IMG/VR virus record: IMGVR_UViG_3300017818_000046
Coordinates: 1 to 36,702 of that record
From: a virus
Direction: 5' to 3' (one strand)
Length of the DNA: 36,702 nucleotides
Shown here piece by piece: positions 6,601 through 36,702 of this stretch. Positions within the stretch are counted from its first letter, which is position 1; each line of letters opens with the position of its first letter. The notes beneath the pieces were generated by a model that did not search any database, had not been told where the DNA came from, and worked only from the letters and a program-made list of their open reading frames with translations. The translations under genes and the position numbers were made by a program.

Positions 6601-9497
6601 TGGATCAAGTTGGAGAGTATGCTCTTCACACAGATTTTGGATATGCCAGAACAGATGATGTCGATGAAATTCTATCAAATAGCTTAACAAATAATGAATT
6701 GACTTTAGATTTTTGGTATTTTAGAAAATCAACATCCATAACTGATTTAAATTCTCCTGGCTCATCAATATTTTCTTTCAATGTTGAAGATGGTGGAGAT
6801 CAAAAAACAATTCTTTGGCAAAAAACAGACGGAACACTTTTATTAGAAGATAGTCTTGGAAATCAATTAACAACTGCACAATTAGAATTTGGAAAATGGC
6901 ATCATATCGCTGTTTATTTTAGCGACAATGCAACTACAATATATGTTGATGGAAAAAAAGAAGATACTATTGCGTCCACAAACATGCTTGAATATACTAC
7001 AGGTACTAATTTTTATGTCGGCGCTAGACAAGACGCTGGACCAGACTATGTAATACTTGATTATACTTTAGGTTTCTTTGGTAGTATGAGATTTACCAAA
7101 GGACAGAGATATGAGGAACAACCAATTAATGGGGATGGTAATATTTTAGTTGAAGATTTGGGAACAGAAAATGTGTTGTCTGGAAATGGACTAAATCCTG
7201 TAAATGTAAATCCAGTTCCAAGTTATAGAAATATTAGAAATTCAGTAAAATTGACAAACTCCTTTGTTGCAACAGAAGGACAAACTGTATATGCATTAGA
7301 TTATGACTCAACACAACAGATTGTAATTACTATCAATGATTCTCCAACAACCGCATTTTCTGCGACAGATGGATATGAAATTACTTTTGATAGTGGTTTG
7401 ACTGCTGGTGATGTTGTAGTTATTTCTTCATATTCTGTTATAAATGATGATCTTGAATATATCATTTACGATTCAAATAATGCAGTTGCTGCGAATACGA
7501 TCCTTCTAAGAAGAATGGATTCTGATGGAATCTATTCGTCATATCAACTTCCAGATGGACATTCATTGAGAATAAAATATTCTGCGCGGCCACCGGCGGG
7601 AGTAAGCAAAACAAGACTTATTACTGGTGGTAGTAATTATATTCGTTATTTGTATGGTTATGTAAAAGACAAAACTATGGATTATAATTCAATTGGTGAT
7701 GGCGCATTTTTCTTAGGCAAAGGAAAAACTGTTGGCGGGATTAGTAAAATCAATATTTATGAAAGCAATATTCAAGATCAGTATGATGGGTTTGGAGTTG
7801 GTTACGATACACCACCGACTCTAGACCTATCTCAACTTGGAGATGGTACTGCACAAGTAAATGTTTTGACAGGGCCGGTTTGTGTTAGAGAAGGACAATA
7901 TATTAATGATGAAGGTTTCTTATCGGCAGATAATAGAATAACTGACAGTTATTTGTGGCAAGATTATTCATATGTTATCAAAGTTGGTAGATATATTGAT
8001 GAGTGGAGAAAAATCGTTAAGAAAGTAGTTCATCCGGCCGGACTAATGATGTTTGGTGAATACTCAATTACTACCACGGCGGAATTGAGAAAGACTGCAA
8101 ATGCAGCATGGAGTCAATTGATATATGAGATTATCAAAAATATCAACTTAAAAGTCAGAAATATGGATGGTTTGGGAAGATGGACATATGGATCTTCATT
8201 TCCAATGAACACCAATGACTTAAATTCTTATGGGTATAAAATTGTCTATGATAATAGACAACCAACAATAAACAGCACGATTGATGGATTGTATCAGGGC
8301 GTGGGTACTGGAGAGGTATCTGATGATACAATTGGAGCAGCCACAGTTGACACGGGTTCTGGTAGATATGCACTTTTAGATGAAAATCAAGATGATGCAT
8401 ACCAATGGAATGTTGTAAAATATATTGCATTGAACTACAAAGATGCGTTTGGAAAAGATTATGAAAATTATTACGAATCAGAACTTATTGGAAATACAGT
8501 AACTGTATATGATTTGTCTGATACTGAAATTACAAATGATGAATACATAAACACACGTCCTTGGGCGAAATATCAAATCACTTCAATTGAATTTGATGAT
8601 GATGCTGAAGATAGAATAGTCACATTTACTGTGAAATATTTGAAACATTATAAAAATATTCCAACACTTTCCCCAGAAAACAAAGTAGAATTCAGATGGG
8701 ATAATATCTTTAGAGGAAATGTGGACAGAATGAACAACTATTGGGTCGGTTCTACTCTAGATGGTGCCAATCCAAGAGATGAAAAAATGATCATAAATAT
8801 TTCTGGAAGATATAATAATAACAAAGAAGGAGATGTGCCTACTTTACATACAACCTATCGTTCTCTAGAAAGATTTAAATTCTACTTTACAGCATATTAT
8901 CCTTGGCAAAATCTAGCAGCACTGTTGTTTAGTCCACAGAGAGAAATGGAAGCTTCCCCATACTGGAATAGAAGAAAATTAATTCAAGGCAATCAACTCA
9001 CTCATGTTCCAAGACGGCCTACAGAATTTAATATGTGGTATTTCTTGCCAGTTGAGGTTGCTGGAGATTATGATTGGATTGCAAATACGGATGGAACTGA
9101 CCATCAATGGACTAATACTAGAATTTCTGAAATTACAGAAAAATCGGATAGAAAATATAGAGCAGTTCTAGATTCACATTTAGATTTGAATCCTGTATAT
9201 TTGGTAATGAGTGAAGAAAATCCTAATTCTAGTACTAGAAAAAGAATGGGCCCTACTAATTTATCAGTAGAAAGAGCTAAATTCAATGAAAAAACTCAGA
9301 TGATAGATTATAATGTAGACAGAATTGATTATAACGAAAATGAGTTGTATATGAACACATTTGGAAAATATATCGTTCCCGGCGGGTTACATAATAAAAC
9401 TAATTTTGCTTCTGAATCGAGCATAATAAAATTCCGTTCAGAACCAACCACATTGGAAGAATTGAATAATATGATAAGTTCAACTATGATTGACTAA
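3633..9497 (+). CDS. 7: Enlarged baseplate wedge protein gp7-like, with lectin-like domain
   Basis: Assigned to gp7, the initiator of wedge assembly, mainly by its place between genes 6 and 8; T4 gp7 is 1032 residues and this is 1954. Residues 1-60 (ISNYIRQQLPYYISSDEDYG) and 249-290 (FLKFMKDFYQSKGTEPSYKF) match the opening of large marine T4-like wedge proteins as I remember them. Residues about 400-990 hold repeated beta modules of the form GxGYxVGxxLTIxGxxLGG. Residues about 1020-1160 look like a LamG/concanavalin-type domain (FGKWHHIAVYFSDNATTIYV, then DGKKED). Residues 1423-1476 carry a conserved block (DSYLWQDYSYVIKVGRYIDE, then HPAGLMMFGE). No convincing Shine-Dalgarno lies before the ATG; coupling to gene 6, which ends 2 bases earlier, is likely. 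The C-terminal 450 residues have no domain I recognise. Confidence 0.78.
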   Translation: MSSNIKDISNYIRQQLPYYISSDEDYGKFVRFLELYYEWLSQPSNVSDVTGKIIDYTDLDQTLDLFVSMFKSELADSFPNITRIKGIEFSNENTENNTQSATITTSDQNFFADGSNHTFKLNYFNPLYYLGNPDDNSKVVEIKVFTNLAGSARGTDSSLDGVLDFLTSPDVDPNGSAGSYNLLVENTDYVLIDNTIKFIDINGDPEAPTNNDLIKVRFYIESILQTTGTADSEDDVKKIVSDASIKKTSYTNQKNFLKFMKDFYQSKGTEPSYKFLFRSIFNEDIDIYYPKNNLFKLSNNVWDSTRSLRAIPYSPSKVTDPKVETPYRIKGKTSNATATVEYYNDVTIGSYSVREYFITNISGDFINKEKIEILQTNNTTYEEELYVCVVGFDIIEPGQNYPRNRPLTSYVSDAGSGTGFSAMIQHTTMGSLDEIEIIGSGSNYITGEQIDFAETGSLGSGALGEVSEIDSVTTDYEVVFNQNPESLEYPVLSFDISLSGDIYPSNSTNTIVSIENIDSKTNDVLILYDYENLIRDRRVYQNGMSFHGFLLDKKSNTIAYRHKASLMPVENPLDTVVNTNFGEVTDTRIRQDLDIRVDSVDANGGITSASVITPAANPTSIFPNIIQLTNQTAVLNNGLGFGASFDVVVENNTITSLTLNADDNSQLYSINDIVKIDGSTFRPDGESINDDVFIKITAVAGGVVVTDIESDAYTTTSVNGTGAVWDIDTTQATYPKLISVLLSDADSNGNPSPTSGYEVGDSFTIPGSVINGTDGEHDLTIEVTEVDNNGRIHSFQTLGRPQGGQISSFTQENFPTLPDAKHEFYNPTFVANNPNGGPVGVGLKFSVNVDGSSYSVINPFGVSRGSGYEVGTTLTINGELLGGTTGVNDLVIRIDDVVDNIRDGEFISGQVKELSVVSGTAVNKTTYRNVSVQNGKGRGARFDVAVNSGTYSITIPAGKEGTGYSIDQTLTIPGQVLGAQWIKDGFVAGLDQVGEYALHTDFGYARTDDVDEILSNSLTNNELTLDFWYFRKSTSITDLNSPGSSIFSFNVEDGGDQKTILWQKTDGTLLLEDSLGNQLTTAQLEFGKWHHIAVYFSDNATTIYVDGKKEDTIASTNMLEYTTGTNFYVGARQDAGPDYVILDYTLGFFGSMRFTKGQRYEEQPINGDGNILVEDLGTENVLSGNGLNPVNVNPVPSYRNIRNSVKLTNSFVATEGQTVYALDYDSTQQIVITINDSPTTAFSATDGYEITFDSGLTAGDVVVISSYSVINDDLEYIIYDSNNAVAANTILLRRMDSDGIYSSYQLPDGHSLRIKYSARPPAGVSKTRLITGGSNYIRYLYGYVKDKTMDYNSIGDGAFFLGKGKTVGGISKINIYESNIQDQYDGFGVGYDTPPTLDLSQLGDGTAQVNVLTGPVCVREGQYINDEGFLSADNRITDSYLWQDYSYVIKVGRYIDEWRKIVKKVVHPAGLMMFGEYSITTTAELRKTANAAWSQLIYEIIKNINLKVRNMDGLGRWTYGSSFPMNTNDLNSYGYKIVYDNRQPTINSTIDGLYQGVGTGEVSDDTIGAATVDTGSGRYALLDENQDDAYQWNVVKYIALNYKDAFGKDYENYYESELIGNTVTVYDLSDTEITNDEYINTRPWAKYQITSIEFDDDAEDRIVTFTVKYLKHYKNIPTLSPENKVEFRWDNIFRGNVDRMNNYWVGSTLDGANPRDEKMIINISGRYNNNKEGDVPTLHTTYRSLERFKFYFTAYYPWQNLAALLFSPQREMEASPYWNRRKLIQGNQLTHVPRRPTEFNMWYFLPVEVAGDYDWIANTDGTDHQWTNTRISEITEKSDRKYRAVLDSHLDLNPVYLVMSEENPNSSTRKRMGPTNLSVERAKFNEKTQMIDYNVDRIDYNENELYMNTFGKYIVPGGLHNKTNFASESSIIKFRSEPTTLEELNNMISSTMID
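4825..6570 (+). repeat. Degenerate beta-module repeats inside gene 7
   Basis: Protein-level repeats within the gp7-like protein. The clearest copies begin near bases 5896 (GYEVGDSFTIPGSVINGTDG), 6228 (GYEVGTTLTINGELLGGTTG) and 6516 (GYSIDQTLTIPGQVLG), with a weaker one near 5632. Two start with GYEVG, and two continue with a DLxI strand about 8 residues after the turn (HDLTIEV, NDLVIRI). A related unit occurs in the 1500-residue protein at 29748-34250. The DNA copies have diverged, so this is old duplication, not recent slippage. Confidence 0.65.
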
Positions 9498-23275: not shown

Positions 23276-23314
23276 ATGACATTCGCAATACAAATATTTG
23301 AAGGTAGATATTAA
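23276..23314 (+). other. Possible 12-residue leader ORF overlapping the next start
   Basis: In the 66-base gap an ATG at 23276 is preceded by AAGGA (23262-23266, 9-base spacer) and reads MTFAIQIFEGRY. Its TAA shares its last base with the ATG of the next gene at 23314. A separate GAAGG site (23300-23304) serves that next gene. It could couple translation, but may be chance; there is no other support. Confidence 0.25.
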
Positions 23315-25362
23315 TGGCACAAAGATATGTAGATCCTAGCACTTTTACAAACTACGGAGTATCTAGACAAAGAAGTTCTTTCACCACACTTCAGGGTGTT
23401 GGTGAAATTTCTAGTGCTGGAGCGATTTCTGGCGGCGCGATGATGGTTCTTGCGACAGATTTGACTACAAGTTGGACTATGTATAATGGAGATCCTATTG
23501 CGGGAAATGAAATTATTGATCAGGATATTGCCAGTCCAGTGACTCCAATCACAAAACAATTTTTCACACAGGTTTCTTTGAATCGTCCAACCACTTCTAA
23601 TGGCGCGGGCTCTGGACCTTATGCTGGAGTTGCAAACTTTAGTCAACTCAATGCTGGAATTAATCCAGAACAACATGTTATGGTTTTTGAAACTAATGAC
23701 GATATTTTACCAAAAAGTGGTGCCGTTTCGAGAGGGATTGACCAAAATTATAGAATTAGATTTGAGTTGGATTTGCGTCCAAGACTTTATTTTGATGTGG
23801 CAGGAAATTCTGGTGATGTTGAATTTAACCAAGAATTATATCAATTAAATATTCGTATGAGTTCTAGGGGCGATCCGCAATATGCAGTTGGTAGTACAAT
23901 TGATGAAGCAACATTTGTTCCAGATTCTTATCATCCTGGCTATTCATTTACAGGAACATTAGCTTCTGGATGGGAGTTATCCACAGGAATACCAAATCCA
24001 AAATATGGTTGGTTCAAAGTAAATGTAGGAACCGCAAATCAAATATTAAATGATGGTAGTGTAGTATCTCCACAATTGAGTGGTGATGGACTTATTACAT
24101 TAGAAAACGGTTCGTCCACAAACACATCAGTTATTAGAAATCCTGGCGAAATGGTAGACTTATCTTTTGATGATGTTGTTATTGCTGCTGATGTTTCTAA
24201 TAGTGGCCCATATCATGTTTACGGAACTGAAACGGACACTTCTACATATGGCCTTAGTAAAGGATATTATTATCCATTGTATCTAGACCAAGCAGCTTCG
24301 AATGCAGCGGATATTGCAGCAGGAGGCACAGGAATATCTCATACTCATACTTTTACTGAATATCCTCTTGCCACCTTCTATATGCCAGATTCTGACCAAA
24401 ATCATACAATGGCAACCGCTCCGAGCTCTTCTAGTTACACAAGATATATAAACAATAGATCGATAAGATTTAGAAATAAAAGAAAAGGTGGTGGATGGTT
24501 TAAGAGATATCCTAAAACCGACCCTACTCTTGAAGGAACATATCCTTTTTCATATAGATTAACAATGACTGAAAGAGGATTAATTTTATATATGTATGAT
24601 GATGCGGCAAGTGATCAGGCAGATGATTATGCGTGGTTTTGCGTTCAAAGAACAGTAAGCAATGAAAGTGGATTACCAAGAACAGATGAGGGTTCAAAAT
24701 TTCCAGTTCACGCAATGTACTCATGTTCAAGAGAATCTTCATATTCTAGTGATGCAGGAGTTTATTTTTCCAGTCAGGCTGCAAATTTACAAACAGCAGA
24801 AACTATGGTTAATCAAGTTTACGACGATCAAGGAAATGAATATACGCTTGAAAATATTGATAATACTAAAACATTTTATATTTTGAGTCCATTTGATAGA
24901 GAAGATTATCTTGGAGATGAAGCAGCCGCAAAAAATATTTGGAGATTTGTTGTAAGAGAATTTGATATTCAAAAACCATCTGATGTTCATAAATTTGCAA
25001 CAAGACATCAAATTGATAGCAATGCAGTAATCAATCCACTGGAACAATTAGCAATCACAGACGAAAACAGATTTGTCATTACATTTCCAACGGGACTTAC
25101 GACACAAAGATTTATGTATCCAAAAGAAGAGATAGATCTTATTTGTTTTTCCTCTGCTGAAGTTGTTGCTGAAGGAAGTAATATTCCAATGGCAACATAT
25201 CTATACGATGGAGCTAGTGAAGATAAAAGACGCTATCAGGGAATGCGTTCAACTGCTGCATTTGGAAACGGTATGAGAATTATGGTTTTGGTTAATTCAC
25301 AATACATATTTAATTCGGATGTTAACTTAGATGCCAACGACCCTGTTGGAACAGGAACTTAA
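23314..25362 (+). CDS. Virion structural protein, shortest of three tandem paralogues
   Basis: A 682-residue protein not identified by name. It shares three modules with the next two genes: module A near residue 146 (NYRIRFELDL), module B near 394-475 (GGWFKRYPKTDP, then DDYAWFCVQRTV and FPVHAMYSC), and module C from about 543 to the end (IWRFVVREFDIQKPSDVH, INPLEQLAIT, YPKEEIDLICFSSAEV, FGNGMRIMVLVN). Here B and C are separated by only about 70 residues, whereas the other two carry inserts of about 560 residues. Its N-terminus (MAQRYVDPSTFTNYGVSRQR) differs from theirs. The ribosome site GAAGG is 9 bases upstream. It is probably an external tail or baseplate-attached component; that is inference from neighbours. 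No cleavage or enzymatic motif is visible. Confidence 0.72.
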   Translation: MAQRYVDPSTFTNYGVSRQRSSFTTLQGVGEISSAGAISGGAMMVLATDLTTSWTMYNGDPIAGNEIIDQDIASPVTPITKQFFTQVSLNRPTTSNGAGSGPYAGVANFSQLNAGINPEQHVMVFETNDDILPKSGAVSRGIDQNYRIRFELDLRPRLYFDVAGNSGDVEFNQELYQLNIRMSSRGDPQYAVGSTIDEATFVPDSYHPGYSFTGTLASGWELSTGIPNPKYGWFKVNVGTANQILNDGSVVSPQLSGDGLITLENGSSTNTSVIRNPGEMVDLSFDDVVIAADVSNSGPYHVYGTETDTSTYGLSKGYYYPLYLDQAASNAADIAAGGTGISHTHTFTEYPLATFYMPDSDQNHTMATAPSSSSYTRYINNRSIRFRNKRKGGGWFKRYPKTDPTLEGTYPFSYRLTMTERGLILYMYDDAASDQADDYAWFCVQRTVSNESGLPRTDEGSKFPVHAMYSCSRESSYSSDAGVYFSSQAANLQTAETMVNQVYDDQGNEYTLENIDNTKTFYILSPFDREDYLGDEAAAKNIWRFVVREFDIQKPSDVHKFATRHQIDSNAVINPLEQLAITDENRFVITFPTGLTTQRFMYPKEEIDLICFSSAEVVAEGSNIPMATYLYDGASEDKRRYQGMRSTAAFGNGMRIMVLVNSQYIFNSDVNLDANDPVGTGT

Positions 25363-25424: not shown

Positions 25425-28400
25425 ATGCCTATCGCCAGCGGATTCAGTATTCAAAGAAATGACATTATTGATGTCGCACACCGGACGCAGAAAGAAATGC
25501 ACACAGCAAATTCTGCGACCGATACCTATATTTTAAGATCAAAACCAGATTTCACTGATAAAGAGTGGGAATGGGATATCAGAATGGGTGAAGTCAGATT
25601 GTATCTGGATAGAAGAAAAGGAAATAATGTTCTTGCTATTCCAACAATGGCATCAGAAATAACAGAATGGCGCGGAAAAAATTATACGGAAGGTTCTTTA
25701 GTTGCTGGAGAAGGTGGTGTAATTTACGATAGTAGTGTTGGTGAATTTGGAGCATTAATATTTAGCGATCTTTCTAAACCAACTTCTGGCGAAATTGTTG
25801 AAATTCAATATAGTGAGGCACTAGAAAAATTTACTGGCAATGACGGCGGCCTTCTTTTCCAACTGGCACATGACCTTTGTGTTCATCCATATAATACTCC
25901 AGAAACTTTTAGGGCAAAATTTAGTAATGCAGAGACATTAAAAATTAATCCGGCCGGAGATGCGCTTGATCCAACCACTAATGGCATCAACCCAAGCCAA
26001 ACAATTACTGGAACTCTTCTTAGCCAAAACGGCGACAACCTATCGGTGTTCAGAAACGATTTATCTGTAAGATATAATCATGATTATTTAGAAGATGGAA
26101 CGAAGGCTGAACAAAGAGAAGGGTATCAGTTGTGGAAGGTTGTTACAGAACATAGAGAATCGGCCACTGTAGACCTTAGTGCTGGCGCTAACGCAACAAC
26201 TCCTATAACTTTGATGGACGATTTTCCTTTAATTGAAGGAGATCTTGGTTCTGGTGAATTTAGAGTTGCAATTAATGGAAGAGTTATTCCAAGAGATCAC
26301 TATACAATTAGTAGTGAGGTTGCTGATAGAAAATCTACATTCAAACTGATAAGAGATACAACTTTATATCCACTAACTTGGGTCGCAGATTTAGTTTCAT
26401 CGAATATTGTAATCACCTATCATTGGGCAAAATCGCTAGATGTTCCATATGGGGCATTAGTTGGTTATAAAGGAATGGGCCCAGATCAGGCAAATTTAAC
26501 ACAAACTAATGCAACTGTAAATCCAGCAGATGGTTCTTTTCCTAGACAGGGCGCAGATAAAGAGTATTGGGTATATAGTACTCCAATTTTAGCATCCCCT
26601 GCTACAACAGGAATTAACGGATTTGTTGGTTGGGTTTATGATACTGGTACAAACGCAGCAAATGTTGTAACAGATCAAAGTACGGTAGGTACACCTATTA
26701 CTACAGATGGAATGAGCGAAAGAAGAAAAAATCTTGCTACCGTTTCTGATGGAGATGTATTCTACTTATCTTTCGTTCAAAATGACGATTTTGCAAACCC
26801 ATTTGAATTGGTTTATCCAAAACCAGTAAGTTCTGAATCAGCTGATGTTAAAGCAGCGCTGAGAAGAATTACTAATAAATTTCTTGTTGAGTCAGATAAG
26901 GGTGTTGATTTATTGTCAGCATCAGATATGTCTTTCCTTAATAGTTATTCTCCTGTTACTGCAAGAAAATCACAGAGATGGAGAATTAGATTTGAATGGA
27001 ATGAATCTGACTTTGCATTAAAAGTAAATGTTGCAACACACCATCAATTAAAAGATGATATGACCATTACTCAGCCTCAAGGTAGAGATGGAATTAAGTC
27101 TCCAGTCTATAGAGAGCCTGGAGAACTTTGTGATGTTTATAAAGAACCTGTTATTGGAAAGGGTGCAAGCGTTCAAATTACAACAGCAAAACAACAGTGG
27201 TTCAAAAGAAATAAAATTGTTGATGAATTGTCCTTAACATATCCAATGTCATATCGTTTGACATGTACAAATCATGGGTTAGGATTATTTTTGTTCGATC
27301 AAGCCTCAGTAGATCAAGATGATGATTACGCATGGTTTGTTGTACAAAGACATGTGGATCAAACAACAGGACAGCCAGAATATACTGACAAGTCTCCCGT
27401 ACATTGTGTATATTCTCCATTCAAACCAACTGCTGATATATCTACCATTAATAGATATTATGCTGTAGATGATTTGGATGATTTATCTCAACCACCGCCA
27501 ATTGCGAATGCATTGGGAGATATTTTTAAATCCGAATCTCCAACGATTTTCATAGACAAAGATAATTCTATTTTTAATGGATATGTAAATGCTGTAGATT
27601 TTAATAGTTTTGGATACACCACTGGCGTATCTGCTGGTATTTCCACTGGTGGAAATATAGTTACCACAGATTTCAAGGCCGATTTGTTTAGAGGAATTAC
27701 AGGCACTTCTGGAATTCCTTCGACATCTCTCTGGTCAGCAACAACATATTCGTTTCAAATAGATGCTAATACAGCTGATCTTTCAACATTGGAAGATTCC
27801 GGCGCATTAATGGCTGGACGATATATTCAATTTGATGCTAATGATGCCTCATTTGCCTCAGCACCAAATCCAGCTGATGCCGTTGGCGGGCGTATTATAT
27901 CATATAACAAAAGCACTAAGGAATTGGTAATTTCTATGTCAGCAGACAAGAAAGCAGTTGCAGATGCTCTTGCGGGACAGGTGCCGGTTACTGCACACTT
28001 AGGAACAAGTGCGACTGGTGATGTGATAGGAATTAACGATTTTGCACAATCATCTCTTGCACAAGATTATGGGATTTTACATACTTTACCATATACAGGT
28101 GCGGACCAAGTTCTATTGACAACTCATAGTAGTGATTCAAATGCATTGTGTGTGAAGAATGAACTTGGAAATGTAAATGATTTGAATGTTGTTGGATTTA
28201 ACTCCCTTCCAAGAAGAAGAGAAACGGCAGTTACAATGGGTGCGTCAAAATCTCCAGTTCCACTTATAAGAGATTCTTTAGCAAATCCAGTTTCTATGAT
28301 TACTGCTACTTCTAATGGTAATAATTTTACAGCAAATCATCCAGCAGCTGCTCTGTGGGTAAATACATTAGATATGGCTCCTTCTGCTTCTGGTAATGTA

Positions 28401-29690
28401 GTTTTCCCAGCACAACTATTAGATAGAATGTCTACTTTTAGGACAGCATCATCAAGCGGAACAGGAGTTCCACCTGTTCCAGAAAATATTAGTCTTTCAG
28501 ATTATAAAGAAGGGGATTCTGCTGTTTTAGACATATTATATAACGCTCAACCAACAAACGCATCAAAAGTTTTTGAATCTATTGTTGTAGCAATTGATGA
28601 TGTTGAAGTTGTAAGAGACCCAGATGCATATGTTCTTACATATGATGAATGGGTAGCACACGGCGATCCATCTACCGCTGGAAAATTTTTAGAAATGCTT
28701 GAAGCGGCCGGTGCGGATAATATTGGACCAAACTTCAAACTTCCAGCAGTTAACACAACTGTTTCTAATCTATTGGGAGAGACAGTAGATGGAACAATAG
28801 ATGGTTCTGTTGTTAATAGAGTAACAAATCGTAGAATGTTTTTAGACAAAACTGGAGATTCTTTTGTAATCGCTTCTGGAAATTTAGTTGTCTCTACAAA
28901 CGATACAAAATTGAGTAGTTTATTGCCAGGTGATATTGTTTGGAAAGAAAACTCAACCACAGATGCTTCTAGAAATACATATATGTATGATTTCTGGAAC
29001 AAAACTTTAGTATTCAAATATGCTCCTAGAGCAAGTGCAAACTTTAGTATTTCTATGGTAAATTATACATCTTCTAATCCATCTCAAAATAGATATATTA
29101 TTGATGTTCCAGAAGATAGAAATTTCCCAGAAACAAATATGAATAAAATTAAAACAATTAATAGATTTGTTGTTAGAGAACAGGACGTATTAAAACCTTG
29201 GGATTATCATGTTTCTGCTACAATGCACGAAATTGACTCTCATGCGATCATCAATCCTCAAGAACAATTGTCCATAACACAGGATAGAAATTTTGTGTTC
29301 TCGTTCCCAACACAAATTACATCACAGAGGTTTTATTACCCACAAAGTGAACTTGATATTATTTGTGTATCTTCTGCTGATTTCTCTACTCAAGCTGGTC
29401 ATGTAGAAATAAATAAGTATGGAGATTCAGATGGGTTGAATGGAGTATTTTCTGGAAATGATTTTGTTCCAGCGGGCCTCGATGGTGACGAAGGCACAAG
29501 ATATGCTGGGCATGTTGGACCAGATGGAGAAAAATATATCTGGAGAAAGTCTGCAAGAAAATATGAAGGAATGGTTTCTACACTTCCAAATGGAAATGGT
29601 ATGCGAATTTTCATGCAAGTAACGGGATCTAGTATTAGATACAGTGATGTGTCGCCAGGAAAAGATCCGGGCTCCGTCTTAGGAACATAA
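25425..29690 (+). CDS. Virion structural protein, second of three tandem paralogues
   Basis: A 1421-residue protein of unknown name. The N-terminus GFSIQRNDII (residues 5-14) matches GFSIQRNEMV in the third paralogue, and DLCVHPY near 149 matches DLCLHPY there. Module A lies near 517-585 (RWRIRFEWNESD, GRDGIKSPVYREPGEL), module B at about 591-665 (QQWFKRNK, ASVDQDDDYAWFVVQRHV, KSPVHCVYSP) and module C at about 1222-1421 (DVPEDRNFPE, VREQDVLKPWDYHVSATMHE, INPQEQLSIT, LPNGNGMRIFMQV). Residues about 666-1220 are an insert unlike the first paralogue and probably the variable surface part. It has its own late promoter and a strong ribosome site, so high late expression is expected. Surface or fibre-like function is inferred. 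Confidence 0.75.
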   Translation: MPIASGFSIQRNDIIDVAHRTQKEMHTANSATDTYILRSKPDFTDKEWEWDIRMGEVRLYLDRRKGNNVLAIPTMASEITEWRGKNYTEGSLVAGEGGVIYDSSVGEFGALIFSDLSKPTSGEIVEIQYSEALEKFTGNDGGLLFQLAHDLCVHPYNTPETFRAKFSNAETLKINPAGDALDPTTNGINPSQTITGTLLSQNGDNLSVFRNDLSVRYNHDYLEDGTKAEQREGYQLWKVVTEHRESATVDLSAGANATTPITLMDDFPLIEGDLGSGEFRVAINGRVIPRDHYTISSEVADRKSTFKLIRDTTLYPLTWVADLVSSNIVITYHWAKSLDVPYGALVGYKGMGPDQANLTQTNATVNPADGSFPRQGADKEYWVYSTPILASPATTGINGFVGWVYDTGTNAANVVTDQSTVGTPITTDGMSERRKNLATVSDGDVFYLSFVQNDDFANPFELVYPKPVSSESADVKAALRRITNKFLVESDKGVDLLSASDMSFLNSYSPVTARKSQRWRIRFEWNESDFALKVNVATHHQLKDDMTITQPQGRDGIKSPVYREPGELCDVYKEPVIGKGASVQITTAKQQWFKRNKIVDELSLTYPMSYRLTCTNHGLGLFLFDQASVDQDDDYAWFVVQRHVDQTTGQPEYTDKSPVHCVYSPFKPTADISTINRYYAVDDLDDLSQPPPIANALGDIFKSESPTIFIDKDNSIFNGYVNAVDFNSFGYTTGVSAGISTGGNIVTTDFKADLFRGITGTSGIPSTSLWSATTYSFQIDANTADLSTLEDSGALMAGRYIQFDANDASFASAPNPADAVGGRIISYNKSTKELVISMSADKKAVADALAGQVPVTAHLGTSATGDVIGINDFAQSSLAQDYGILHTLPYTGADQVLLTTHSSDSNALCVKNELGNVNDLNVVGFNSLPRRRETAVTMGASKSPVPLIRDSLANPVSMITATSNGNNFTANHPAAALWVNTLDMAPSASGNVVFPAQLLDRMSTFRTASSSGTGVPPVPENISLSDYKEGDSAVLDILYNAQPTNASKVFESIVVAIDDVEVVRDPDAYVLTYDEWVAHGDPSTAGKFLEMLEAAGADNIGPNFKLPAVNTTVSNLLGETVDGTIDGSVVNRVTNRRMFLDKTGDSFVIASGNLVVSTNDTKLSSLLPGDIVWKENSTTDASRNTYMYDFWNKTLVFKYAPRASANFSISMVNYTSSNPSQNRYIIDVPEDRNFPETNMNKIKTINRFVVREQDVLKPWDYHVSATMHEIDSHAIINPQEQLSITQDRNFVFSFPTQITSQRFYYPQSELDIICVSSADFSTQAGHVEINKYGDSDGLNGVFSGNDFVPAGLDGDEGTRYAGHVGPDGEKYIWRKSARKYEGMVSTLPNGNGMRIFMQVTGSSIRYSDVSPGKDPGSVLGT
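27297..27355 (+). repeat. 59-base near-identical segment, copy 1
   Basis: Encodes DQASVDQDDDYAWFVVQRHV. It differs from copy 2 at 31725-31783 by only 3 bases, including a 29-base perfect stretch, although the flanking regions of the two genes are much less alike. This suggests gene conversion or recombination between paralogues. Confidence 0.75.
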
Positions 29691-29747: not shown

Positions 29748-32700
29748 ATGGCTACCTCACTAGCAACCGAATTTTTGTCAGGTGGTTTTTCTATCCAAAG
29801 AAACGAAATGGTGTCTATGCAGCAACAGAAACACCGCCAAAAGTTTCAGTTTTTGAATAGTTTTAACCAAACATATACAAGACTCGATAGACCAGCACAA
29901 GGAGAATTTGATAGAATTCGTCCTTATTCACTATCATCTGAAAAAAGACAATTTATTGGTGGGACTGTTACTACAGTAACTACTCCATTAACACAAACAT
30001 ATAGAAATGGAAATCAAAAAGCACAACTAGGAGGTATCACTTTAAACTCACAGGGTGGTATTGTAACTCTCAATGTTCTTTCTGGTGGATATGGTTATGC
30101 TCCTAGTACAACATTTAATGTGATCTTTAGAGGTGGCCAACCAGATGTTGGAACTTTCGAGCAATGTTACGCTACAGCACAATCAGACGGTGAGGGTAGA
30201 ATTGTTTCTGTAGATATTCAAGTCACTGGATTGAACTATGATGAAACAACTGGTGCCGAAATTACAGCAGAAATAGATGAGTCTCCTACTATTGGACAGT
30301 TCTATGTTTCTTTCTTTGATGGGGTTGGTGCTATTACTGGAGTTGATATTGAAAGTGGAAACACAGGACATCGCCCTGGCGTTTATTTTGTAGAAGCTGG
30401 CACGGTTGCTGTTGGTGTCGGTGAGGATGGTGTAACTCCAAACGCTTCAGCAGGTTCTGGTGGTACTTTCCAAGTGCATGTTGATAATAGCGGCGCTGTT
30501 ATTAAAGTAGTTCCTCTTACTTTTGGACAAGATTATCTTGTCGGAAATGAAATTACTATTCCAGCAACACGACTTGGTAATAATGGAACTCAGTTAACAC
30601 CAGTTACCGATCTTGTTATTAGTGTCAGTTCTGTTGTTGACGCCGATCAGTTTGCCCTTGATTATGGAACAGTCACTTGGAGAAGTGAAACCTTTCAAGT
30701 TGGCGATACTGTTGTTTTAGAATATTTTATCGATACTTCTAGAGATACAAGAGCTGTTGATGGTGTTCTTAGAACACTTGCTACTGATTTGTGTCTACAT
30801 CCATATGGAAACTATTATAGTTCTGCATTTTCAACTGTCCAACAAAGAAATGCTGTTTTGACTTGGGATGCTGCTCCGACTTATGGTGTTACTACATTTA
30901 CTGCCACTTTAACAGATGCTGTTTCTGGATTTGCTTTAACAGCAGATACAGGATTTCAACCAGGCGATGTTGGTAAAAGAATTATTGAACCAAATAAAAC
31001 TGGCGCTGCAAAAATTATATCTGTAGATGCCGCTGGTGTTGCTACAGTAACTATGGATAATGTTTTGGAACCAGATACAAGAGAAGTAAATGCATTTGAA
31101 AGTTCCACAAAAACCACATATTCGGTAGGAGAATGGAGACTTGCGATTGCAACATCTGAATTTGAATCGCAACCATATAATATCATTTATCCATATCTCA
31201 ATTCAGATGCAACTTCTCCAATTCCAATCGCAGTTGATGGTCAACAAAACCATAGAGATGTTAAAACATGTATCAATAGAATTGGTGATATGTTTATTGT
31301 AGAATCTGAAAAGGCAACAGACCTTCTTTCTTCGAAAGCAGATATTAACTCTGCTACTTCAGCTATACCATCTTCGGTTTCTTTGACACAACCAGTAAAA
31401 GATGCTAGAAAACCACAAAAATGGAGAATGAGATTCTTCTATGACCAAAGAGATGAATATCTTTATGTAAATATAGCAACTTCTCTTCAAATTAAGGACA
31501 ATGGAGATTTGACAAAAGGTCAAGGACGTGATGGTATTAAACAGGCAGTATTTAGACAGCCAGGAGAATTAAGTGAAATTTATTACAATTTCTCCAATGA
31601 TACTAACAAAGCAAAATCTGGTTGGTTCCGTAGACAAGGTAAAACAACAGACGATATTGAAAGCGGATATCCACTTGCATATCGTTTAACTTGTACTGAC
31701 CATGGCACAGGACTGTTCTTGTTTGACCAAGCATCAGTAGATCAAGATGATGACTACGCATGGTTTGTTGTACAAAGACATGTTAACAATGTTTCTGGAA
31801 GAATCGAATTTGAAGATGGAAAATCTCCAGTACATTGTTTATATTCACCATCTACAAGGCCAGAAGAAACATCAAACTATAATGTAGGTTTCTTTGCAGA
31901 AGTTGATGAAGATTTGGATGTTATCAGTGGACAAACTACAATAACATCAAAATCTCTTGAAGAACTTCAAATCTATGATGTGAATGGTAGATTGCTTAAA
32001 CCAGGCCTACCAGTAGATGTATCTATTGTTACAGATTCTAGTCCTGTGGAATTTAGAACTACTCCATATTCGGGCGGACCTAAATATCTCGCTCCAACTC
32101 TTGCTGCTGGCGGTGTTGCCGGTGTTGGTCCGTATGATGGAATTTCATTTGTCGATACCGCGACACTAGGAACAGATTCCACAACTGGATATACAATTAT
32201 TAATGACCAAGTGCTTATGCCAGCAATTACTGGTGGTGCGACTGGAACATATGAAGATCTAGCTATTTCAAAAAGTGCTGGATTTACAGGAGCAACTATT
32301 ACTGATAGAACTCAATTTTCTCTGAATTTTGCTAAGGGATATGGAACAACTTTTGTTCCTGTGGGACAATTTATCACTGCACTAGAACAAACGAATAGAT
32401 TTACAGCTAATGTGGATGAAGATATTGCAAAAACCGCAGCAGACATAGGAGACTCCAGAACCGTTGTTGCAAAGGCTGGATTTACTATTGGTGGTTTGGA
32501 TAACTTTAACGCAGCAAGAAATCAGATGACGGGCCCTGCTAGACTCGGATTGACGCCATCTAGAATTAGACATAGAAGTAGATCTGGTGTTGATACATAC
32601 TTAGAGGTTTCCGATTTCCAATTCCTTGATAAAACTGAAATTGCACCAAGGGTAAATCCAAACGGCAAGGCAAGAGAACTTCCAGTCGTTTCATCTGTAG

Positions 32701-34250
32701 CAATATTTAAACCTCTTTCTGGATTTGCAAAAAATCTAGTAAACCAACAAAGAGTGAGAATAATTCACGTTACTCCTGTAACAGCTACATATTCTGCTGG
32801 TTCAAATATTCCAGTAATAGCACTACAGGCCGCTGGATCAATTACTGGACCGGTAACTGGATTGACAGATGATGTAAATGCAGAAATTGTTCCAATCCCT
32901 TACGCACAATTGGGCGGAAGCACAGCAGGATTTATTACAGACTATTCTGGTCTATCAGAAGCAACTCCAACCAATAATGGATTTATTACTGGTGGCAGCG
33001 GTTTTACTGACATGTTTATTACTGCTCCAGGCTCTGGAACTTTAGATATGGCTGTGGGTGATATGATTACAACTAAACAAGAAGCTGTCAAAGTTGATGC
33101 TACATATCTTGGAGCGCCAGGAGCGCCAATTGAGGGTTATAGAGTTGATGCTATTGTTGATACTTTCTCAGAAGGTGATGGTTTCATTTATGAATATGCA
33201 TGGGAAGGTGCTGGATTTGGTAACACATATACAAACTTCTATGGAAGATCTGGTACTTCATCCAACCCACTATTTGAAGTAAATAGATTGAAAATATTTG
33301 TTGATGGTGCAGAAGCAGATGCTGCTGTTTTCGGACAAAACTATACTATCAACTCAGCGGGAGAAGTAGAGTTTGGTACAACTAATAAGAGTTTGGAATA
33401 CTTTGGTGTTGAGAAACCAATGTATGCGTATAACTTGACAAACGACACATGGACTTTCAATGAAGTAATTGAAAATGGAACAGTTGTAAAACTTTCTTAT
33501 GAAAACTATAATGATATCGAAGAAAGAGATACAGGTAAATCAACATACTTGATTAAAGTTCCAGAGGATAGAGATATTCCAAGCATTTGGAATGATATTC
33601 ACAGAGTTGCCAAAGGTATCTACAGATTCTGTGTCAGAGAAGCCGATGTGTTCAAACCTTGGGATTATCATGTATCTGCTGTAATTCCACAAGTAGATAG
33701 CCCTGCATGTATTAACCCTGTAGAACAGTTGTCAATTACACAAGACAAGACAGTTATCTTTAACTTCCCAACACCTCTTGCATCACAAAGATTTATCTAT
33801 AGTGATGCTGAAATGGACTTGATTTGTGTCGCAGGCGCAGACAGTTCAACTCAAGGTGGTATTATCAAAACTGCTTCTACAAAGTATGACTTGGATGCTG
33901 CACAAATCTCTGCGGTTACTGATGGACATACTCCAGGCACTGAAAATATATCAAGCAATGGAGATAAAATGAATTTCCGTCAACCATATGATTGGCACAA
34001 CACTCACCAAGGAGTTCACTCAGCTACATTGGCTACAAATGGTGGAGTTGCATCTTTTAGAGATGGAGCTGTGGCTGTTGATACCATTTCGAACTCAACA
34101 CACAGAACATATGTTGGTATGATGAGTACAAAACCTTTTGGTAACGGCATGAGAATCTTTATCTTAACAAGAGGTGGGCCAGTTAGACCACAATATAGTG
34201 ACTATACTCCAAGAGATATTAGAGCAGAAAACGAAAATACATTTACATAA
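29748..34250 (+). CDS. Virion structural protein, third of three tandem paralogues
   Basis: A 1500-residue protein of unknown name. The N-terminal GFSIQRNEMV is at about 13-22. A beta-repeat insert follows at about 95-300 (GGYGYAPSTTFNVIFRGG; FGQDYLVGNEITIPATRLG), which resembles the modules in the gp7-like protein. DLCLHPYGNYY is near 347. Module A lies at about 558-620 (KWRMRFFYDQRDEYLYVN, GRDGIKQAVFRQPGEL), module B at about 625-701 (GWFRRQGK, DDYAWFVVQRHV, KSPVHCLYSP) and module C at about 1264-1500 (VPEDRDIPS, FKPWDYHVSA, CINPVEQLSIT, FGNGMRIFILTRGG). The insert at about 702-1260 is unlike that of the second paralogue. It is driven by the promoter at 29709 and followed by a terminator 30 bases after its stop. 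It is probably surface exposed; function not established. Confidence 0.75.
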   Translation: MATSLATEFLSGGFSIQRNEMVSMQQQKHRQKFQFLNSFNQTYTRLDRPAQGEFDRIRPYSLSSEKRQFIGGTVTTVTTPLTQTYRNGNQKAQLGGITLNSQGGIVTLNVLSGGYGYAPSTTFNVIFRGGQPDVGTFEQCYATAQSDGEGRIVSVDIQVTGLNYDETTGAEITAEIDESPTIGQFYVSFFDGVGAITGVDIESGNTGHRPGVYFVEAGTVAVGVGEDGVTPNASAGSGGTFQVHVDNSGAVIKVVPLTFGQDYLVGNEITIPATRLGNNGTQLTPVTDLVISVSSVVDADQFALDYGTVTWRSETFQVGDTVVLEYFIDTSRDTRAVDGVLRTLATDLCLHPYGNYYSSAFSTVQQRNAVLTWDAAPTYGVTTFTATLTDAVSGFALTADTGFQPGDVGKRIIEPNKTGAAKIISVDAAGVATVTMDNVLEPDTREVNAFESSTKTTYSVGEWRLAIATSEFESQPYNIIYPYLNSDATSPIPIAVDGQQNHRDVKTCINRIGDMFIVESEKATDLLSSKADINSATSAIPSSVSLTQPVKDARKPQKWRMRFFYDQRDEYLYVNIATSLQIKDNGDLTKGQGRDGIKQAVFRQPGELSEIYYNFSNDTNKAKSGWFRRQGKTTDDIESGYPLAYRLTCTDHGTGLFLFDQASVDQDDDYAWFVVQRHVNNVSGRIEFEDGKSPVHCLYSPSTRPEETSNYNVGFFAEVDEDLDVISGQTTITSKSLEELQIYDVNGRLLKPGLPVDVSIVTDSSPVEFRTTPYSGGPKYLAPTLAAGGVAGVGPYDGISFVDTATLGTDSTTGYTIINDQVLMPAITGGATGTYEDLAISKSAGFTGATITDRTQFSLNFAKGYGTTFVPVGQFITALEQTNRFTANVDEDIAKTAADIGDSRTVVAKAGFTIGGLDNFNAARNQMTGPARLGLTPSRIRHRSRSGVDTYLEVSDFQFLDKTEIAPRVNPNGKARELPVVSSVAIFKPLSGFAKNLVNQQRVRIIHVTPVTATYSAGSNIPVIALQAAGSITGPVTGLTDDVNAEIVPIPYAQLGGSTAGFITDYSGLSEATPTNNGFITGGSGFTDMFITAPGSGTLDMAVGDMITTKQEAVKVDATYLGAPGAPIEGYRVDAIVDTFSEGDGFIYEYAWEGAGFGNTYTNFYGRSGTSSNPLFEVNRLKIFVDGAEADAAVFGQNYTINSAGEVEFGTTNKSLEYFGVEKPMYAYNLTNDTWTFNEVIENGTVVKLSYENYNDIEERDTGKSTYLIKVPEDRDIPSIWNDIHRVAKGIYRFCVREADVFKPWDYHVSAVIPQVDSPACINPVEQLSITQDKTVIFNFPTPLASQRFIYSDAEMDLICVAGADSSTQGGIIKTASTKYDLDAAQISAVTDGHTPGTENISSNGDKMNFRQPYDWHNTHQGVHSATLATNGGVASFRDGAVAVDTISNSTHRTYVGMMSTKPFGNGMRIFILTRGGPVRPQYSDYTPRDIRAENENTFT
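31725..31783 (+). repeat. 59-base near-identical segment, copy 2
   Basis: Partner of 27297-27355 with 3 mismatches over 59 bases, in the same module-B position of the third paralogue. Confidence 0.75.
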
Positions 34251-34271: not shown

Positions 34272-34279
34272 GATAAATA
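34272..34279 (+). promoter_or_regulatory. Possible variant late promoter GATAAATA
   Basis: One mismatch to TATAAATA, just before the terminator and 42 bases before the last gene. With T4 spacing the start would be near 34285, inside the terminator's left arm. GATAAATA also occurs inside coding sequence elsewhere (near 19397), so chance is a real alternative. Confidence 0.3.
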
Positions 34280-34280
34280 A

Positions 34281-34307
34281 GGGGAGGCACTTAGCTTCCC
34301 CTTTTTT
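34281..34307 (+). terminator. Intrinsic (rho-independent) terminator
   Basis: GGGGAGGC (34281-34288), a 5-base loop, then GCTTCCCC (34294-34301) form an 8-pair stem with one G-T pair, followed at once by six T. It lies 30 bases after the stop of the third paralogue and ends the structural transcript. Confidence 0.9.
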
Positions 34308-34320
34308 GTTGCAGAGAAAA

Positions 34321-36702
34321 ATGTCAGTCGTAAATATATTTTTATTTAGAGATATAGTAAAAGTTAAGATTGGAATAGGTTCGCCTTCCAATCCTGGCAC
34401 TCCTACGGATGGTCAAGAGATCTCCGAGGGAAACATAACATATGTTTACAATGCGTCTACAACAAATTGGGATATTACAACAAAAACAAATCAAGTTTTT
34501 GTGTCAGGATTATCTTCTGCTATAACTATAAATTTTTCAGCCGGTGATATTATAAAAAATGGTAATAGTGTCGGAACATCTACCACAGTAGATAATGGAG
34601 ATACCGTTAGGCTTTCAGTTACAAGTCCTGTATTAAATACGGTGAACAATTATACGTTCACTGCTGATTCTACAACATTAGAATTTAATGTGGAATTAAA
34701 TGATCCAGTAACCGCAAATTATGATGTAGAAAAAGCCGAAACAATTTCTAATAACGACGACTTAGAAAAAGAAGATGAAAATGTAAATTTAATTTCTGGT
34801 GCAACAGAAAATTTATTTCAGAATATTGCAAAACAGACTCAAACAACAGAGCGTGATGCTCTAATAGTAAAAGATACTATTGAAAAATATGTACAAGAAA
34901 GAGTTGGTAGTAATTTACTTGAGCCAGATTTTGCAGATATTGATATTATTACTGAAATTGCAAAGTTAGAAGGAATCAATCTTGAATTTATTGCTGACAT
35001 AGAAACTATTACTCTAAGAGATTTTATTTTAGCATATCTTCAAGATACAGAACTGAAAACTTTAGAATATACTCCTACAGAAGAAACAGTAGAAGAAAAA
35101 TCTCAAGAATCTATTGAAGAGGAAGAAACTTTACAAACTTCTGAAACCGAAAAATCAGAAGTTTTAGAAACAATTTCTACTACAGATGCTTCTTTGTTGG
35201 AAACATCTGATAGCGATTCTTTATTAGAAACTAATCTAATTGAAGATTCAGAAACCATTACTTCTTTAGAAACTGCAAGTGCGGAGATTACAGAGATTAT
35301 ATCTGCAAAAGATGCGGAGATTAATAATGTTACAGACACTATTGAGACAACACAGACATCTACATTTGAAGATATTGAAGAGATCTCTTCTCAGGAGACT
35401 TCTACATTAGAAGAAACGGAAACAATAACAACTTCTGAAACAGACAAGGCAGAAGAGACAGAGTTTGTTTCATTCACAGAAACTTCTACTCTAGAAGAAA
35501 CCGAATCTACTTCAATCACAGAAACTTCTACTCTAGAAGAAACCGAATCTACTTCAATCACAGAAACTTCTACTTTAGAAGAAGTAGAGGATGTTTCATT
35601 TACTAATATTGAAGCTGATGAAGTTCTTGAGCAGGCCAATTTACTAGAACAAATTAAAAACGAGCTTCAAGAACTCACAGAAACGAAACAATCTGAAATA
35701 CTAAGTGAACTAGAAAATATTTTTCTGAATAATTTAGAAAATTTTTCTGAACAGATTACGGTAGATTTTATATCTCAAAATTTAGCAGATATTTTAGAGA
35801 AAGAAAATTTATCAGTACCAGAATTCAATAGTTTTGAAGAATTACAACAGTTTCTTCAAAATGAATTAGATTCTACTACCGAGATCACTTCTCTGCGTCA
35901 ACTGAATTTAGGAGAAATTGATGAAATAATTTCCGTTTCTCTTCAGGAAACATTTACGGATAGCGTAGTCGATTCTTTATTGGACACGCCTATCAATGAA
36001 ATAATAGATTCTGTTGAATTTGCAGATCCAAACATACTGAATGAAATTGAGACTTTTATAGAAACTAATTTCCCTCAAGCTTCTATAGAAGAAACCACAA
36101 CATTTATAGAACCAAGAGAAAGTTCAAACGAAGCTGAAACAGTAGAAGCACAAGAAAAAATTACTGGTGCGACAGAACTTGTTTCTGGGGTTGATGACAC
36201 TGATGATTCTTCAGTAAGTTCTGCTGTAAGCACAGATACTTCAGTAGAAGATTCTTCTTTAGAAAATGCAGCAAATCCTGATCAAACCGAGGATTTTATT
36301 CCAGTATCGGGAGTTTCAGAAACGACAATTCCAGAAACTGAAACATCAGAATCTGAAGATTCTTATGAATTCGAAAAATTTAGTGATGAAGAAATCAATG
36401 AAGTAAAAGAGATAGAAACTACATCAACAGATGAAATTAATGATACAAGAGAATTAGAATCTTCAACACCAGACGAAAGTGAAAATTTAAGAGAATTGGA
36501 TTTTGGTTCCGATTCGGATGTTGTTGAAACACAAGAAAAAATTACTGGTGCGGTAGAACTTGTTTCTGGTTCTGATGATACTGAAGATTCATCACAACCA
36601 ACTGCTGTATCTACTGAAGGCACTGAAGATTCATCACAACCAACTGCTGTATCTACTGAAGGCACTGAAGATTCATCACAACCAACTGCTGTATCTACTG
36701 AA
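34321..36702 (+). CDS. Giant acidic Ser/Thr/Glu-rich repeat protein, 3' end missing
   Basis: Open from the ATG at 34321 to the last base (794 codons, no stop), so the true protein is longer. I do not recognise it. Residues 1-135 form a beta domain: VSGLSSAITINFSAGD then VDNGDTVRLSVTSP, a pattern common in Ig-like repeats of phage and bacterial surface proteins. From about 140 on it is dominated by Glu, Asp, Ser and Thr, with no Cys or His, one Trp and no Met after the start. It has few basic residues and no membrane segment. Helical, less repetitive stretches occur at about 150-240 and 435-595. Two unrelated 14-residue tandem repeat families occur (TSTLEETESTSITE; TEDSSQPTAVSTEG). The ribosome site is weak (AGAG, 4-base spacer), and the gene lies just after a terminator. 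It is possibly a long extended virion filament or disordered tether; that is inference. Confidence 0.8.
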   Translation, partial: MSVVNIFLFRDIVKVKIGIGSPSNPGTPTDGQEISEGNITYVYNASTTNWDITTKTNQVFVSGLSSAITINFSAGDIIKNGNSVGTSTTVDNGDTVRLSVTSPVLNTVNNYTFTADSTTLEFNVELNDPVTANYDVEKAETISNNDDLEKEDENVNLISGATENLFQNIAKQTQTTERDALIVKDTIEKYVQERVGSNLLEPDFADIDIITEIAKLEGINLEFIADIETITLRDFILAYLQDTELKTLEYTPTEETVEEKSQESIEEEETLQTSETEKSEVLETISTTDASLLETSDSDSLLETNLIEDSETITSLETASAEITEIISAKDAEINNVTDTIETTQTSTFEDIEEISSQETSTLEETETITTSETDKAEETEFVSFTETSTLEETESTSITETSTLEETESTSITETSTLEEVEDVSFTNIEADEVLEQANLLEQIKNELQELTETKQSEILSELENIFLNNLENFSEQITVDFISQNLADILEKENLSVPEFNSFEELQQFLQNELDSTTEITSLRQLNLGEIDEIISVSLQETFTDSVVDSLLDTPINEIIDSVEFADPNILNEIETFIETNFPQASIEETTTFIEPRESSNEAETVEAQEKITGATELVSGVDDTDDSSVSSAVSTDTSVEDSSLENAANPDQTEDFIPVSGVSETTIPETETSESEDSYEFEKFSDEEINEVKEIETTSTDEINDTRELESSTPDESENLRELDFGSDSDVVETQEKITGAVELVSGSDDTEDSSQPTAVSTEGTEDSSQPTAVSTEGTEDSSQPTAVSTE
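35479..35583 (+). repeat. 42-bp tandem repeat, family 1
   Basis: Two identical 42-base units (35479-35520 and 35521-35562) and half of a third, with one change, up to 35583. They encode ETSTLEETESTSIT in frame. A diverged earlier unit (ETSTLEETETITTS) starts near 35397. Confidence 0.92.
36150..36200 (+). repeat. Dispersed in-frame duplication, copy 1
   Basis: Encodes AQEKITGATELVSGVDDT. Copy 2 begins at 36531 (TQEKITGAVELVSGSDDT), exactly 381 bases (127 codons) downstream. After both copies the protein continues with an Asp/Ser-rich stretch containing DDSS or EDSS. Confidence 0.8.
36531..36581 (+). repeat. Dispersed in-frame duplication, copy 2
   Basis: Second copy of the segment at 36150. 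It runs directly into the 42-bp repeat array at 36580. Confidence 0.8.
36580..36702 (+). repeat. 42-bp tandem repeat, family 2, cut by window end
   Basis: Units at 36580-36621, 36622-36663 and 36664-36702 (39 bases, cut by the window end) are identical with no mismatch. They encode TEDSSQPTAVSTEG. The array is still running at the last base, so the copy number is unknown. Perfect identity points to recent expansion. Confidence 0.95.

Follow-up and report, generated by a model that had tools for sequence, protein, structure and literature searches.

A giant acidic protein with a register-locked 14-residue repeat encoded in the baseplate region of T4-like phages

In phage T4, the genes for fibritin (wac) and for the short and long tail fibers are located between gp8 and gp13. 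The gene described here is like these in its character of a late structural gene and in occupying the same segment before the neck genes, but its highly acidic product has no sequence match with fibritin or the tail fibers. Short repeats with fixed positions are also known from beta-rolls: RTX nonapeptide beta-roll repeats are Asp-rich and ordered by Ca2+, and YadA-type beta-roll repeats are 14 residues long. The acidic array shares a short unit with fixed positions with both, and its period is about equal to that of the YadA type. The RTX beta-roll, however, is glycine-rich with a period of 9/18, whereas neither 9 nor 18 ranks among the leading lags of the acidic arrays, which also lack any Pfam match. 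In Prochlorococcus phage P-SSM4, the corresponding segment between VrlC and gp13 encodes a giant repeat protein labeled YadA domain-containing; unlike the acidic array, this protein is 9% acidic and its lag 14 identity is at background. This structural protein measures 2,657 aa, contains repeats of 52 residues and is encoded before the neck genes (L200:14009-21982). Finally, the tandem repeats of archaeal Borg elements are reported to create disordered protein regions and to be rapidly evolving and recently formed (PMC9879509). The acidic gene likewise carries in-gene tandem DNA repeats that give disorder-like protein, but its units are diverged, in register and under purifying selection.

Here we describe the gene, its complete form and its relatives. 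We tentatively favor the view that the protein is a late-expressed part of the tail tip or baseplate region in a T4-like phage lineage, where it would form an extended polyanionic strand of the virion.

The acidic gene and its neighborhood

The window (the whole 36,702-base viral record) covers a T4-like baseplate region. Among its products are a hub-lysozyme protein, wedge proteins of the baseplate (one of which matches gp25 in Pfam), a phrog_358 protein of 2,321 aa that carries the annotation VrlC in related phages, and other large proteins. These tail-protein neighbors bear out the placement of the acidic gene next to virion genes in an earlier note on this DNA. Over its last 500 residues, the product of the gene immediately upstream shares 70-71% identity with the corresponding proteins of G003 and G004. 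The three adjoining phrog_12249 proteins (23314-25362, 25425-29690 and 29748-34250) are labeled tail sheath, a label that may be doubtful; a separate sheath-like gene of 1,061 aa lies beside the terminase gene in G001 (4914-8099), judged by position and sequence start only.

The acidic frame opens at an ATG and runs for 794 aa to the end of the window without a stop codon, and the contig ends there inside perfect 42-bp repeats (Table 1). The same phage is present in a 203,815-base record, G001, which has 10 mismatches over the 36,702 window bases and none in the acidic gene. Extension to the stop codon in G001 gave a complete protein of 1,877 aa with a net charge of -443 (254 D, 247 E, 31 K, 27 R), in which the Asp-rich array spans residues 749-1784 and comprises 74 units. 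The earlier note had described a giant acidic repeat protein with few basic residues and no Cys or His, and this description holds: residues 136-794 are 53% D/E/S/T with 178 acidic against 25 basic residues, and His and Cys are absent both from the 794 window residues and from the complete protein. Its acidic part of more than 650 residues is real, although that length was understated. The tandem repeats it had noticed were recovered by Tandem Repeats Finder in the complete gene as 42-bp and 84-bp arrays with identity up to 100%.

Table 1. Positions of the acidic gene, its parts and its upstream signals in the window.
Feature	Position	Strand	Basis
Upstream neighbor of 1,500 aa, phrog_12249 type, with two more such proteins in the window	29748..34250	+	PHROGs
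Late-promoter motif GATAAATA, fits cyanophage consensus NATAAATA	34272..34279	+	In 5/5 members compared
Terminator-like GC hairpin with T tract, immediately downstream of the late-promoter motif	34279..34303	+	In 5/5 members compared
N-terminal 794 residues of the 1,877-residue acidic repeat protein, truncated by the record end	34321..36702	+	Open frame and G001
Beta N-terminal domain, residues 1-130	34321..34710	+	AlphaFold2 and sequence identity
Fibre-type stretch, residues 25-59	34393..34497	+	Profile of nine fiber N-termini, E 4.3e-7
Predicted helical region, residues 150-250	34768..35070	+	AlphaFold2
Glu-rich 14-residue repeats, residues 263-430	35107..35610	+	Repeat analysis
Predicted helical region, residues 435-605	35623..36135	+	AlphaFold2; conserved in groups 1 and 2
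Start of Asp-rich 14-residue array, residues 749-794	36565..36702	+	Perfect 42-bp tandem repeats at window end

Upstream of the start codon, the order of an ATAAATA motif, a GC hairpin with a T tract and the ATG is kept in all five members compared. NATAAATA is reported as the late promoter of cyanophage S-PM2 (PMC2984593). Because the promoter motif stands directly before the hairpin (34272-34303), the transcription start would fall at the hairpin. The earlier note had put the gene behind a terminator, with which the terminator-like hairpin agrees, and had called it a separate transcription unit, which fits the start of the gene only. In G001, the acidic gene and the following fiber-like gene are 6 bases apart and the PAAR gene overlaps the end of the fiber-like gene, so that the three likely form one late operon.

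This order of acidic, fiber-like (887-1,771 aa) and PAAR (95-102 aa) genes was found in all ten records that reach that far (G001, G002, G004, G005, G006, G007, G008, L195, L196 and L197). Pfam confirmed PAAR for one protein per group (E 3.8e-19, 9.7e-13 and 1e-14). The downstream fiber-like proteins are homologous across groups (G001 against L196, E 1e-44; against G006, E 0.0). Their label comes from the G001 protein, which matches jumbo-phage tail-fiber families; the L196 protein matched no tail-fiber family in Pfam or PHROGs. The G001 fiber-like protein (L025:6839-12028) itself contains an aromatic, FYExxKxI-like 14-residue repeat at residues about 876-1120. The idea that this repeat forms a partner lattice was dropped, as it was above threshold in only one of seven downstream proteins (that of G001).

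The charge of the protein and its place in this gene group would also suit the main rival to a virion strand: an assembly factor, that is, a polyanionic chaperone or scaffold that separates basic-surfaced tail proteins or nucleates the tip and that the mature virion lacks or retains only in part. The net charge is very high, and the gene lies directly before those of a large tail protein and PAAR. We nevertheless consider this role unlikely, as the fiber-like beta head and the conserved cap described below look like structural anchors, and a 14-residue register has no obvious use in a simple charge sink. Grouping with PAAR is also in keeping with a lumen protein or a delivered one, riding on the PAAR tip or inside the tail tube and handed over when the tail contracts. 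That no effector domain was found with Pfam, and that the number of units varies widely among relatives, unlike a length-measuring part, makes such a protein improbable. For the virion strand that we prefer, the PAAR gene order and the late-promoter motif both count in favor.

A family in three groups of phages

Searches with the N-domain and the cap, together with a DNA pattern describing the acidic repeat, identified at least 16 IMG/VR records, window included, that carry the acidic gene. They fall into three groups: group 1 holds the window, G001, G002, G003 and G004; group 2 holds G005, G006, G007 and the records of L184, L185, L186 and L188; and group 3 holds G008 (L060) and the records of L195, L196 and L197. 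Open full-length frames measured 1,877 aa (G001, G002) and 2,325 aa (G004) in group 1, 1,663 aa (G006, G007) in group 2, and 1,143 aa (L196) and 998 aa (L197) in group 3. All share one architecture, in which a beta domain stands at the N-terminus, a long array of Asp, Glu, Ser and Thr follows, and a conserved cap closes the C-terminus. The acidic gene of G005 (L175, record 41029-46085) is split over several frames, by either a real mutation or an assembly error.

Half of the 16 records found end within the acidic gene (the window, G003, G008, L184, L185, L186, L188 and L195). At five of these eight ends (window, L184, L185, L188, L195), the last two repeat periods are at least 97% identical; at the other three, the identity is 0.70 (L034, of G003), 0.69 (L186) and 0.38 (L060). 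The break sites (window 36577-36702, the ends of L184, L185 and L188, and the start of L195) consist of perfect or near-perfect 42-, 84- or 126-bp repeats, indicating that short-read assembly tends to fail in the acidic gene. With 8 of 16 records ending there, the family is probably under-detected and commoner than databases suggest.

Searches for relatives outside the family returned little. Pfam gave no family at E 0.1 or better for the full-length G001, L196, G006 and G007 acidic proteins, PHROGs gave none for the window protein (E up to 0.001) or L196 (E up to 0.1), and a PDB sequence search gave no match at E up to 10. A tblastn search of 50,697 phage records with the window protein, the N-domain, the group 2 cap, the first 650 residues of L196 and the L196 cap found no family member, with the low-complexity filter on and the arrays hardly covered; weak matches were to an IPT/TIG protein of Synechococcus phage Sf-CH1b, phage NCTB and a Streptococcus phage. 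A scan of genome_contigs limited to the N-domain patterns of groups 1 and 2 gave 232 stretches, none of which was confirmed. In six further phages (L036-L038, L198-L200), the baseplate or neck stretch contained no acidic 14-residue array. Searches of open-licence PMC papers showed no comparable protein, and the claim that it is not in print has that scope. The absence of any known family, as the earlier note had it, thus extends to Pfam, PHROGs, PDB sequences and, apart from weak or unrelated matches, the phage records, and the strong full-length match to a fiber, whisker or scaffold family that the note had named as a test was not found in Pfam or PHROGs. In the searches made, we could not match the repeat of this phage tail-region protein to any known one.

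In a terminase comparison, the nearest isolates among the matches listed were Methylophilales phage Melnitz and Synechococcus phage S-SRM01, at 57-58% identity. Melnitz (L198:6220 onwards, record about 86225-87694) has a 491-residue low-charge frame with its top lag identity at 14 (0.18). A DNA-pattern scan of viral_contigs for acidic arrays gave at least 120 stretches, and among the best 45 of 117 scored frames, which were inspected, many were simple DxDx-type repeats. Another strict 14-residue repeat, ETSADWDSTYTSVS, occurred among the matches listed in large viral frames (L047, L135, L140) that are weakly acidic and reach 2,049 residues; it is unrelated in composition to the acidic array.

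The 14-residue register and its conservation

Sequence identity within the arrays peaks sharply at multiples of 14 residues. Identity at lags 14/28 was 0.31/0.41 in G001, 0.25/0.34 in G004, 0.44/0.46 in G006, 0.42/0.46 in G007, 0.47/0.48 in L196 and 0.42/0.41 in L197, against a background of 0.07-0.17 at lags 13 and 15 in the six arrays, and identity at lag 14 or 28 was far above that of shuffled sequences. The top lags were 28, 14, 56 and 42 in five arrays and 14, 28, 42 and 56 in L197. With profiles built without the tested block and its flanks, nearly all blocks fell in one phase (23/23 in G001, 29/30 in G004, 20/20 in both G006 and G007, 9/9 in L196 and 8/9 in L197). The phase also held between proteins: a cross-protein profile scored 125 in the common phase of G001, against -417 in the best other phase and a shuffle maximum of -406, and 21 in the common phase of G004, against -565 in the best other phase. 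Single units are often degenerate, and 55 of 73 (G001) and 61 of 93 (G004) scored best in the common phase.

We rotated the columns so that the most Asp-rich became column 8, a step that fixes column 8 alone. The acid fraction in G001, G004, G006 and L196, respectively, was then 0.93, 0.94, 0.97 and 0.84 at column 8, 0.85, 0.68, 0.73 and 0.58 at column 4, and 0.00, 0.02, 0.03 and 0.03 at column 13, with Ser/Thr at column 10 in 0.46, 0.82, 0.66 and 0.42 of units. L196 departs from the others in its extra acid-rich columns 3, 11 and 14 and in Gly at columns 2 and 10; Gly is rare in the arrays of groups 1 and 2. Each unit carries about 4 to 5.5 net negative charges. The array is therefore a register-locked 14-residue repeat rather than plain low complexity, and its column pattern is common to four proteins from three groups.

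Structure prediction gave a different picture. AlphaFold2 found no fold for the array (9-row alignment, mean pLDDT 39.9), and by composition all six arrays fall on the disordered side of the charge-hydropathy line. A fibritin-like coiled coil was not indicated, as no helix was predicted in the modeled part of the array (at very low confidence) and no two array columns paired as heptad hydrophobics, with Pro in several columns. Since a plain disordered chain needs no register, we hypothesize that divalent cations, or a partner that is itself periodic, could impose order on the array and so account for both findings.

Selection was compared in two pairs, with approximate domain limits. Between G006 and G007, dN/dS was 0.17 for the Asp array, 0.28 for the Glu array, 0.19 for the N-domain and 0.20 for the whole gene, against 0.10 and 0.08 for the upstream and downstream genes; the cap had no synonymous and one nonsynonymous change, and hence no ratio. 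Between L196 and L197, values were 0.17 for the array, 0.01 for the cap and 0.13 for the whole gene (dS of the N-domain was saturated), against 0.10 and 0.09 for the neighbors. The acidic gene is thus less constrained than its neighbors, yet clearly constrained. Gaps within the array were whole units (14 and 14 in G006/G007; 28 and 28 in L196/L197), while gaps outside the array in L196/L197 were 1, 26, 2 and 60. Whole-unit gaps are also expected from tandem duplication, and the informative part is the absence of other gaps in the array. Between landmarks (residue 736 in both proteins and the L of TRPRLSV), the arrays of G001 and G004 differ by 434 residues, or 31 x 14, a figure that depends on the landmark copy: counted from the first G001 copy (609), it is 307, which is not a multiple of 14.

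These data bear on whether the array could be a near-neutral low-complexity expansion, with tandem repeats growing and shrinking to no specific purpose. Recent 42/84-bp duplications, unit numbers that differ among relatives and the lack of a predicted array fold are all in keeping with this, but an array dN/dS of about 0.17, one register across diverged units and a column pattern that recurs in three groups make it the least probable of the explanations considered, and highly improbable in itself. For a virion strand, the common register, the array dN/dS and the whole-unit gaps count in favor. Against it stand the absence of an AlphaFold2 array structure, the disorder-side composition, the degenerate single units and the weaker constraint relative to neighboring genes.

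Terminal domains and a possible role at the tail tip

The N-domain (residues 1-130) is 55-69% identical to that of the window in groups 1 and 2. It extends to group 3: L196 and L197 gave BLASTP E values of about 1e-8 and 1e-5, respectively, and E values of 9.7e-8 and 4.8e-6 with a profile of the group 1 and 2 N-domains. AlphaFold2 predicted 13 strands in residues 5-127, with moderate confidence only (pLDDT 38-76 per 10-residue block over residues 21-120, lower at both ends). The earlier note had proposed an Ig-like head; a beta N-terminus agrees with the model, and an Ig-like nature is plausible, although Foldseek with the first AlphaFold2 model found nothing in PDB at E 0.001 or better (best E 0.044).

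The head was also compared with fiber proteins of the same phages. These begin FPxSPxNGQ...YxYN...W, and their N-terminal module resembles a stretch of the G001 and G004 acidic proteins. A profile of nine fiber N-termini from G001 and G004 matched residues 25-59 of the G001 acidic protein and residues 26-58 of the G004 protein (E 6.6e-8). Of about 245 ORFs, 14 scored above the inclusion threshold, nine of them the training set. The matching stretch is only about 35 residues long, starting near residue 25, and the fiber proteins differ from the acidic protein in having 4-12% acidic residues and no 14-residue register. The profile did not match L196 or L197 of group 3, which also counts against a virion strand, while the match in G001 and G004 speaks for it.

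Between the head and the Asp-rich array, the predicted helical region at residues 435-605 aligns in groups 1 and 2 (41% identity in G004, 25% in L059). A version common to all groups was dropped, as BLASTP with group 3 was not significant (best E 0.019).

The C-terminal cap is short and is the most conserved part of the acidic protein. Its identity to G001 is 68-70% in G004, 47% in three group 2 members and 32% in L060, with 15 invariant columns among six sequences. Receptor-binding tips are usually variable. A receptor-binding fiber, with the array as a long stalk and a host-binding tip at the C-terminus, would account for the fiber-type N-terminal stretch and the tail-protein neighbors, but a short cap that is the best-kept part of the protein (68% between G001 and G004; dN/dS 0.01 in L196/L197) is hard to reconcile with it, and we think such a fiber distinctly unlikely.

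From the sequences, we infer instead a virion protein in which the beta head and the C-terminal cap would bind virion partners and the array would be an extended polyanionic strand, either projecting from the tail tip or lying along it. In each 14-residue unit, the repeated [DE]xxxDx[ST] element may make one turn. Inside the cell, where divalent cations are scarce, charge repulsion would keep the array loose; outside, Ca2+/Mg2+ could order it into a long fiber or brush close to where the tail meets the cell. This cation-ordered array is a hypothesis drawn from the fixed Asp positions. The fuller proposal, that these proteins represent a new class of protein repeat, with a 14-residue unit in one register that is disordered in the cell and becomes a cation-ordered polyanionic fiber or spring at the tail tip, is bolder and to our minds rather doubtful.

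The acidic chain beside the tail-tip genes takes about 3-7 kb of genome in these phages. An array of disordered appearance that nevertheless holds a single register under purifying selection offers a useful test of how far structure prediction should be trusted, and of whether phage tails deploy charged, extended chains at the cell surface.
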